Below are positions 52,649 to 54,047 of a DNA stretch of 64,000 nucleotides, piece by piece. Source of the stretch: Mumia quercus (lineage in GTDB: Bacteria; Actinomycetota; Actinomycetes; Propionibacteriales; Nocardioidaceae); assembly GCF_025506335.1 (NCBI RefSeq), contig NZ_JANZYO010000004.1, forward strand, positions 434,001-498,000, given 5' to 3'. A program made the position numbers and the translations under genes. Every line of letters begins with the position of its first letter. Positions within the stretch are counted from its first letter, which is position 1. The notes under the pieces were generated by a model that did no database searches, was not told where the DNA came from, and was given only the letters and a program-made list of their open reading frames with translations.

Positions 52649-52775
52649 CATGGTCAGGCCCCGGTCGTTGCTGTATCCCCCGTCAGCAGCGGCTGGGGTT
52701 TCCCAATGCCCCGAGCAGCTGAGCCCGATGCCCCGGAGATCTTGCGGCCGCGGGCTGCGTGCTAGCCTCGTCCCC

Positions 52776-52841
52776 ATGTTGAGCGGGCGATTTTATGGGC
52801 ACGACGTGCTGGTGAAGCCAGCGGTCGGTGCCCACGGCTGA
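52776..52841 (+). CDS. Phe-Tyr leader peptide of the DAHP synthase attenuator
   Basis: A 21-residue open frame starting MLSGRFYGHD. Phe6 and Tyr7 are encoded by TTT and TAT, AT-ending codons that are rare in this 70% GC genome, which suits ribosome stalling. TAGCCT (52763-52768) lies 7 nt before the ATG, so a leaderless transcript is possible in addition to the upstream promoter. The stop lies 34 nt before the terminator hairpin. The product is expected to have no function of its own. Confidence 0.65.
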   Translation: MLSGRFYGHDVLVKPAVGAHG

Positions 52842-52901
52842 GTCCCCAGCACCCACCCGCACAGCTAGCCAGCACAGGCACGGACCACTCGGTCCGTGCC
52901 T
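52823..52901 (+). promoter_or_regulatory. Transcription attenuator: antiterminator and terminator
   Basis: Terminator arms AGGCACGGACC (52876-52886) and GGTCCGTGCCT (52891-52901) pair perfectly around ACTC and are followed by TTCGTC. Segment GGTCGGTGCC (52823-52832), inside the leader peptide, can pair at 9 of 10 positions with the terminator's left arm and so prevent it. GTGCTGG (52806-52812) can also pair with CCAGCAC at 52846 or 52869. These are mutually exclusive structures, as in classical amino-acid attenuation. Confidence 0.7.
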
Positions 52902-52958
52902 TTCGTCATTCGTGGCGGTGCCGGCAAGGAAAGCGGCGCCGCCGAGAGGAAGCGCCAG

Positions 52959-54047
52959 ATGTCTCCGAGCACCACCCCCGCCGTCCGTACGACCAGCGAC
53001 CTGCGAGTGCGCACGCTCGAGCCGCTCGAGCCGCCGCGTGAGGTCGTCGCGTCCCGTCCGCTGAGCGCGTCCGCTGCGGCCCTGGTGACCCGCGCCCGTG
53101 AGGCCGCGGCGGCGATCATGGCCGGGCGCGACGACCGGCTCCTCGTCCTCGTCGGTCCTTGCTCCATCCACGACCCGAGCGCGGCCCTCGACTACGCGCA
53201 CCGCCTCGCCCCGCTCCGGGAGGCGTACGCCGACGAGCTCGAGATCGTGATGCGGGTCTACTTCGAGAAGCCGCGGACCACGATCGGCTGGAAGGGCCTC
53301 ATCAACGACCCCGGCATGGACGAGACGTACGACGTACGCCGCGGTCTGCGGCTCGCCCGCACGGTGCTCCTCGACGTCCTCGCGACAGGCCTGCCTGCGG
53401 GGACGGAGCTGCTGGAGCCCACGAGCCCGCAGTACCTCGCCGACGCGGTGTCGTGGGGTGCCATCGGAGCCCGTACGCCGGAGAGCCAGGTGCACCGGCA
53501 GATGGTGTCCGGCCTGTCGATGCCCGTCGGGTTCAAGAACGCGACGGACGGCTCGGTCCAGGCCGCGATCGACGGGTGCCGCGCGGCCGAGGCGGAGCAG
53601 ACGTTCTTCGGGATCGACGACGAGGGACGTGCCTGTGCGGTCTCCACGAGCGGCAACCCCGACTGCCACGTGATCCTGCGCGGAGGCCACAGCGGCCCCA
53701 ACTACGGGGCGGACTCGCGCCGGGCGGCCCTGGCGCTGCTCGAGAAGGCGGGGATGCCGCAGCGCCTGGTCGTCGACGCGAGCCACGGCAACTCCGGCAA
53801 GGACCACGTCCGTCAGGCTGCCGTGGTGCGCGAGATCGCCCACGACGTGGCTGCCGGTGATGCCGGGATCGGCGGCGTGATGCTGGAGAGCTTCCTCGTG
53901 CCGGGCAAGCAGTCCCCCGCCCCGAGCGGCCTCACGTACGGGCAGAGCGTCACCGACGCGTGCATCGGCTGGGACGTCACCGCCGACCTCCTCGAGGAGC
54001 TCGCGACTGCCTCGCAAGCCCGGCGCCAGCGCCGTGCTCTCGCCTAG
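52959..54047 (+). CDS. Class I 3-deoxy-7-phosphoheptulonate (DAHP) synthase
   Basis: A 362-residue enzyme that condenses phosphoenolpyruvate and erythrose-4-phosphate in the first step of aromatic amino acid synthesis. AroFGH-type motifs are visible: LVGPCSIHDP, KPRTTIGWKGL, GFKNATDGS, GGHSGPNYGA and DASHGNSGKDH. The ATG at 52959 follows GAGAGGAAG, and the N-terminal extension typical of feedback-regulated enzymes is present. The preceding attenuator with Phe and Tyr codons suggests regulation by those amino acids. Confidence 0.93.
   Translation: MSPSTTPAVRTTSDLRVRTLEPLEPPREVVASRPLSASAAALVTRAREAAAAIMAGRDDRLLVLVGPCSIHDPSAALDYAHRLAPLREAYADELEIVMRVYFEKPRTTIGWKGLINDPGMDETYDVRRGLRLARTVLLDVLATGLPAGTELLEPTSPQYLADAVSWGAIGARTPESQVHRQMVSGLSMPVGFKNATDGSVQAAIDGCRAAEAEQTFFGIDDEGRACAVSTSGNPDCHVILRGGHSGPNYGADSRRAALALLEKAGMPQRLVVDASHGNSGKDHVRQAAVVREIAHDVAAGDAGIGGVMLESFLVPGKQSPAPSGLTYGQSVTDACIGWDVTADLLEELATASQARRQRRALA

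Follow-up and report, generated by a model that had tools for sequence, protein, structure and literature searches.

The locus and its question

DAHP synthase is the gatekeeper of the shikimate pathway. In a 64,000-nt stretch of the Mumia quercus genome (the window; GC content ≈ 71%), the gene for a type I-alpha enzyme is preceded by a small open reading frame (ORF) with adjacent Phe and Tyr codons and by a terminator-like hairpin. This raises the question of whether these parts form an attenuator and, if so, which RNA helices would do the switching. An earlier reading of the sequence alone (the sequence-only reading) had proposed a Phe/Tyr leader-peptide attenuator of the classical kind. The features discussed below are as follows (window positions).

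52763–52768, plus strand: − 10-like box TAGCCT (TANNNT), exactly 7 nt 5' of the leader ATG
52776–52841, plus strand: leader peptide ORF, MLSGRFYGHDVLVKPAVGAHG and stop; homologous leaders in congeners
52791–52796, plus strand: control codons TTT (Phe) and TAT (Tyr), invariant in the genus and rare in the genome
52797–52833, plus strand: 1:2 hairpin, GGGCACGAC..GTC-GGTGCCC
52806–52812, plus strand: segment A, GTGCTGG
52823–52832, plus strand: GGTCGGTGCC, the antiterminator strand of the sequence-only reading
52869–52875, plus strand: segment B, CCAGCAC, directly 5' of the terminator and perfectly paired with A
52876–52901, plus strand: intrinsic terminator-like hairpin, 11 bp, loop ACTC, tail TTTCGTCATTC
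52914–52943, plus strand: stretch able to form the hairpin GGCGGTGCCG..CGGCGCCGCC, directly 5' of the Shine–Dalgarno sequence
52944–52952, plus strand: Shine–Dalgarno sequence GAGAGGAAG of the DAHP synthase gene
52959–54047, plus strand: type I-alpha DAHP synthase gene (aroF/G/H family; TIGR00034, E 1.9e-144)

The gene at 52959–54047 was the sole PF00793 match in the genome. The second DAHP synthase is of type II and is encoded on a different contig (locus L107; G000 contig C9, 330519–331814); inspection of its upstream DNA revealed no aromatic leader ORF. TACCCT is found shortly 5' of its GTG start codon, and this gene, too, may be leaderless. The gene upstream of the leader region ends ≈ 200 bases 5' of it, and a conserved terminator-like hairpin (CCCCCGTCAGCAGCGGCTGGGGTTT, 52677–52701) lies in between.

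Leader ORF, control codons and − 10-like box

The leader ORF extends from an ATG at 52776 to a TGA at 52839–52841 and has 21 codons. TTT (52791–52793) and TAT (52794–52796) are codons 6 and 7 and, as the sequence-only reading had it, adjacent; the control region contains just this one Phe and this one Tyr codon. The same reading had called both codons rare in the genome. The long high-GC3 ORFs of the window comprise 19,787 codons; TTT accounts for 7 of these (0.35 per 1000) and TAT for 5 (0.25 per 1000), and the two never occur side by side. The TANNNT box, which had gone unnoticed, lies exactly 7 nt before the leader ATG; this spacing implies that the transcript would start at or beside the start codon, that is, be leaderless. 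A scan of the region for consensus promoters and terminators gave no match because its criteria are ill-suited to a GC-rich genome and a short T tract.

Other leaders show this codon choice as well. In 50 leaders we counted 60 TTT and 8 TTC, and 54 TAT and 1 TAC; for the DAHP synthase genes that follow them the corresponding numbers were 0 and 282, and 2 and 263. The remaining leader codons had G or C at the third position in 77% of cases. Leaders within one family are related and are not independent counts, and the inversion recurs in different families with different peptides. It could stem from slower decoding of TTT and TAT or from an unstructured mRNA start.

Conservation within the genus and family

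Six genomes from the genus were covered, among them that of the window, and five carry the type I-alpha gene (congener G004 is the one without it). In all five, box, leader, TTT TAT, terminator and gene are kept together, the box in the arrangement TANNNT-N7-RTG, and the leader contains SGRFYG; the homologous leaders of the four congeners are MSGRFYGRDVLVQPAVGA. The sequence-only reading had made itself dependent on conservation of the Phe/Tyr codons in close relatives, and here it held. One block, GCCAGCACAGGCACGGACCAC(A/T)CGGTCCGTGCCTTTCGTCATTCGTGGCGGTGCCGGC, differs at a single loop base and is otherwise invariant; the spacer that follows the stop codon is variable. The block that follows the terminator (52904–52952) is also largely invariant. 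In the family as a whole the type I-alpha gene is rare (11 of 294 genomes, six of them outside the genus), and all six extra-genus loci reaching the leader region have RWYAYF leaders.

RNA segments and hairpins

Compared with dinucleotide shuffles, the leader region is more stable by 5.4 sd when folded, and none of 200 shuffles did as well. The 1:2 hairpin (about − 22 to − 25 kcal/mol in the genus) is a protector hairpin that begins at the control codons: its left arm (52797–52805) starts directly after the Tyr codon, and its inner stem consists of A paired with A' (52817–52822). The window's GGGCAC..GGTGCCC is replaced by GGGCGC..GGCGCC in the congeners, a double change from A-U to G-C that keeps the hairpin and is the only double compensatory change in the genus. 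Segment A, identical across the genus, can pair with A' or with B. Segment B is likewise invariant, the spacer preceding it being variable, and the A:B helix has an energy of − 15.1 to − 18.2 kcal/mol in the genus. Like the box, the 1:2 hairpin and segment B were missing from the sequence-only reading. Its perfectly paired terminator was confirmed: AGGCACGGACC-ACTC-GGTCCGTGCCT pairs without interruption over 11 bp. The loop is ACAC in the congeners, and the T tract is short in the window (TTTCGTC) and longer in several relatives.

Beyond the terminator, the stretch 52914–52943 has a left arm that is invariant in the genus and contains B' (52918–52925), which is able to pair with B (− 12.6 to − 13.5 kcal/mol in the genus; − 13.4 with one mismatch in the window). 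The position of the hairpin directly before the Shine–Dalgarno sequence makes translational control possible. Other folds compete with it in longer sequence, and in some congeners the minimum-energy fold is a different one.

Leaders across Actinobacteria

A sample of 394 actinomycete genomes was searched with TIGR00034. The model was present in 86 of them, and upstream DNA was taken for 85 loci. When one caller was run on real and on shuffled upstream DNA, 56 of the 85 loci and 0 of 425 shuffles had a small ORF in which aromatic codons stand side by side and whose start is preceded, at 6 to 8 nt, by the box. Most loci without a leader call belong to a single family, f18. Its members (most of L117–L134, L137, L142, L143 and L145) have a type I-alpha enzyme and almost no recognisable aromatic leader; control there must differ or have been lost.

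Aromatic leaders (YWRF, RYWF, RWYAYF, RFYF) occupy the same place before type I-alpha genes across Actinobacteria, and the peptides are lineage specific (YWRFIEAPGGA, RYPYFAQAPGGAG, YFWFSRPAPGG, YWRFFEWPA, RWYAYF). At L019, a frameshift after TTT (VKRSYWRFLSGRPW...) sets the YWRF leader apart from its relatives, yet the DNA of A, B and terminator is kept. RFYF leaders were present in 12 of 14 Corynebacterium loci, a sample whose genus assignment was itself deduced with the leaders among the criteria. A primer-sequence search of 401 genomes for the exact Corynebacterium glutamicum locus gave no match. Many leaders of the class contain Trp; those of the window's genus have Phe and Tyr only. In the enzyme tree, the genus groups with Streptomyces sp. 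150FB and Glycomyces (support 0.94). Because the leaders of both these neighbours contain Trp, the Trp codons were probably lost in the window's genus.

Proteobacterial type I-alpha DAHP synthase genes also have small upstream ORFs packed with aromatic codons, such as MSAKFYFYFFWYLRPLADREG (Burkholderia) and MITVATSYFWYFSYDSSLAAGGSRSI (Bradyrhizobium); the loci concerned are L049, L057, L058, L061, L062, L067, L075, L080, L093, L099, L102 and L106. No Rfam match was obtained in the Proteobacterial loci scanned.

Nature of the element

We consider it very likely, on the strength of genus conservation and of the precedent set by C. glutamicum aroR-aroF, that the element acts as an aroR-aroF-type transcription attenuator mediated by the ribosome, through which the supply of charged tRNA-Phe and tRNA-Tyr would set the expression of DAHP synthase. 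The proposal of the sequence-only reading is thereby supported in this part. Weighing against it are the short T tract of the terminator, the presence of a single Phe and a single Tyr codon, and the congener that lacks the gene.

A different view is that a chance small ORF happens to precede the terminator of an upstream transcript and that nothing is regulated. Small ORFs are indeed common, and the upstream gene ends close by; however, that gene already has its own terminator-like hairpin, and chance would have to explain the conservation in the genus, the codon inversion, the fixed distance of the box and the reappearance of such leaders ahead of this enzyme in families far apart. We therefore regard chance as highly improbable. 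Metabolite sensing by the RNA itself, by a T-box or another ligand-binding leader in place of the ribosome, seems less credible still. In Firmicutes, T-boxes regulate aromatic genes. For ileS they are described in some Actinobacteria (PMC1262725). Yet no Rfam family, the T-box model included, matched the window at gathering or relaxed thresholds, nor did any match ten related loci, and what is conserved here is codons in a reading frame.

Alternative helices

More than one helix is a candidate for preventing termination. In the finished RNA at equilibrium the terminator always folds, whatever the state, and the switch must therefore be kinetic. Since full-length equilibrium folding cannot discriminate the states, folding was restricted to RNA up to the terminator's left arm. 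The sequence-only reading had named 52823–52832 as the strand that captures this arm. The pairing of GGTCGGTGCC with the arm (GGCACGGACC) exists, at 9 of 10 positions and − 18.7 kcal/mol in the window, with a G.G mismatch that had not been mentioned. If the edge of the ribosome is placed directly beyond the Tyr codon, the mean probability that the left arm is paired with upstream RNA is ≈ 0.88 in the window species. These figures favour a purely classical scheme, with 52823–52832 as the only antiterminator. In the congeners, however, the same calculation gave 0.00 to 0.25, the strand preferring a local partner or A:B forming instead, and a second mismatch (C.A) is fixed there. It is partly offset by extra pairs (8 to 9 of 10 positions and − 16.0 to − 19.1 kcal/mol across the genus), and we accordingly rejected the idea that the congeners have lost this pairing. 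Among 74 distinct actinobacterial elements it gave no signal (− 7.94 compared with − 7.99 ± 0.17 for permuted partners), nor did it in the Corynebacterium loci, and no general upstream partner for the left arm was found when one was sought class-wide. The pairing is thus possible in the genus and lacks class-wide support as the antiterminator; we give the purely classical scheme distinctly less than an even chance.

The pairing that is conserved across Actinobacteria is, from these comparisons, A:B, and it differs from the one first proposed. Among the 74 elements its energy was − 24.7, compared with − 19.5 ± 0.40 for permuted partners (z about − 13; the permutations ignore relatedness, so that z-scores here are inflated and the existence of a pairing is safer than its strength). 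The two segments also covary: we counted 582 paired cells against 508 ± 7.3 in 500 permutations (maximum 531), a count anchored on the GGC/GCC core, which is hence paired by construction. By lineage, A:B positions are variously G-C, A-T or T-A. The Corynebacterium loci gave − 22.05 compared with − 18.58 ± 0.69 (minimum − 21.22 in 2000 permutations). In most loci A:B ends a few nucleotides or less before the terminator. It adjoins the terminator without overlap and hence differs from an ordinary antiterminator. It might act as an anti-antiterminator in this genus, keep the stalled ribosome close to RNA polymerase, or provide a connection with the start of translation.

A more elaborate arrangement would be a three-partner switch, A pairing with A' or B and B with A or B', in which the leader would regulate the start of translation as well, by way of the Shine–Dalgarno hairpin (dual transcriptional and translational attenuation). 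Apart from A:B itself, it draws on B:B', with 591 paired cells outside Corynebacterium compared with 552.6 ± 7.1 and energies of − 17.96 compared with − 16.09 ± 0.33 for permuted partners (z about − 5.7, inflated in the same way); the control pairing A:B' gave no signal. B' usually lies 10 to 18 nt beyond the terminator. In loci of the Rhodococcus, Nocardia and Amycolatopsis type, the terminator's usual place between leader and gene is taken by CGAGCCGG..CCGGCTCG, a hairpin poor in U and the main one there, which also suits a switch of this kind; the terminator finder misassigned a few loci (e.g. L004 and L203). Against it, B:B' is modest in the window and was not significant in the Corynebacterium loci, B' can form only once the terminator has been passed, and the Shine–Dalgarno hairpin is not the preferred fold throughout the genus. 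We consider this arrangement rather unlikely as it stands.

Proposed mechanism

For the attenuator of the aroR-aroF type that we favour, ribosome positions were computed with the standard 15-nt ribosome edge. Transcription would start at or next to the leader ATG, and the ribosome would begin on leaderless mRNA, as the box suggests. When Phe and Tyr are ample, it would pass TTT-TAT and reach the stop codon. There it covers ≈ 52822–52851 and so hides 52823–52832, a geometry that fits the sequence-only reading; the terminator would then form and transcription presumably end. When charged tRNA-Phe or tRNA-Tyr is scarce, the ribosome would stall at codons 6 and 7. When the Tyr codon occupies its A site, it covers RNA up to ≈ 52806 and hides the left arm of the 1:2 hairpin (52797–52805). 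A and 52823–52832 would be free for other partners, and RNA polymerase would read through. The helix that prevents termination may be that of 52823–52832 with the terminator arm, which can form in the genus; A:B is the class-conserved candidate.

As a tentative generalization, to which we give slightly less than even chances, the actinobacterial DAHP synthase leaders may constitute one uncatalogued regulatory RNA class. A leaderless ORF would sense Phe, Tyr and often Trp through TTT, TAT and TGG, and the conserved switch would be the terminator-abutting A:B, exchanged in many lineages for a B:B' that spans the terminator. In such a class, this switch may anchor a stalled ribosome beside RNA polymerase or couple termination with the start of translation.

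Comparison with known systems

The C. glutamicum aroF leader carries Phe-Tyr-Phe (PMC4046766), and its leader aroR has already been put to engineering use by removing it to raise flux (PMC7356990). For aroR, the comparison draws on PMC11802643, PMC7356990 and PMC4046766. Both aroR-aroF and the window have a short leader with Phe and Tyr codons, a terminator, a type I-alpha gene and, in addition, a type II enzyme, and the Corynebacterium loci share the box at the start codon and the A:B helix. The leaders differ in being RFYF in Corynebacterium and RFY (one Phe, one Tyr) in the window. Further features of the window element are its stable 1:2 hairpin, a strand that can pair with the terminator arm and, possibly, B'. 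In the account given in PMC11802643, citing Neshat 2014, transcription of the aroF operon was higher under Phe limitation and Tyr availability was without effect; for this reason, Tyr sensing in the window species may be weak too. The window element very probably belongs to the known aroR kind of attenuator.

With the classical trp and pheA attenuators (1:2, 2:3, 3:4), the element shares control codons at the start of a protector hairpin, a terminator before the gene and a fitting ribosome geometry; it differs in its probably leaderless ORF, in the two different amino acids that it would sense and in a class-conserved alternative helix that does not overlap the terminator. Leaderless leader ORFs are found in other actinobacterial attenuators, namely ilvB of C. 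glutamicum and candidate Cys-rich mycobacterial ORFs (PMC4633059). As would be the case here, translation of a small ORF begins at or close to the first nucleotide there, and the ORF contains codons for the pathway product, but the amino acid and the gene are others. The LEU element, described as a conserved pseudoknot before leuA in Actinobacteria (PMC1262725), is likewise a leader RNA with alternative pairings before an amino acid biosynthesis gene, and differs in being a pseudoknot and in its gene.

In the open-access literature that we searched, we found no description of a class-wide leader family or of A:B. For the Phe and Tyr operons of Actinobacteria, a comparative study of 2005 had reported that conserved upstream RNA structures were lacking (PMC1262725), whereas our survey suggests that aroR-type control spans many Actinobacteria with a type I-alpha enzyme. 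The element offers a testable link between codon choice (TTT and TAT where the genes use TTC and TAC) and ribosome sensing, and its conserved A:B pairing goes beyond what the textbook attenuator scheme explains.
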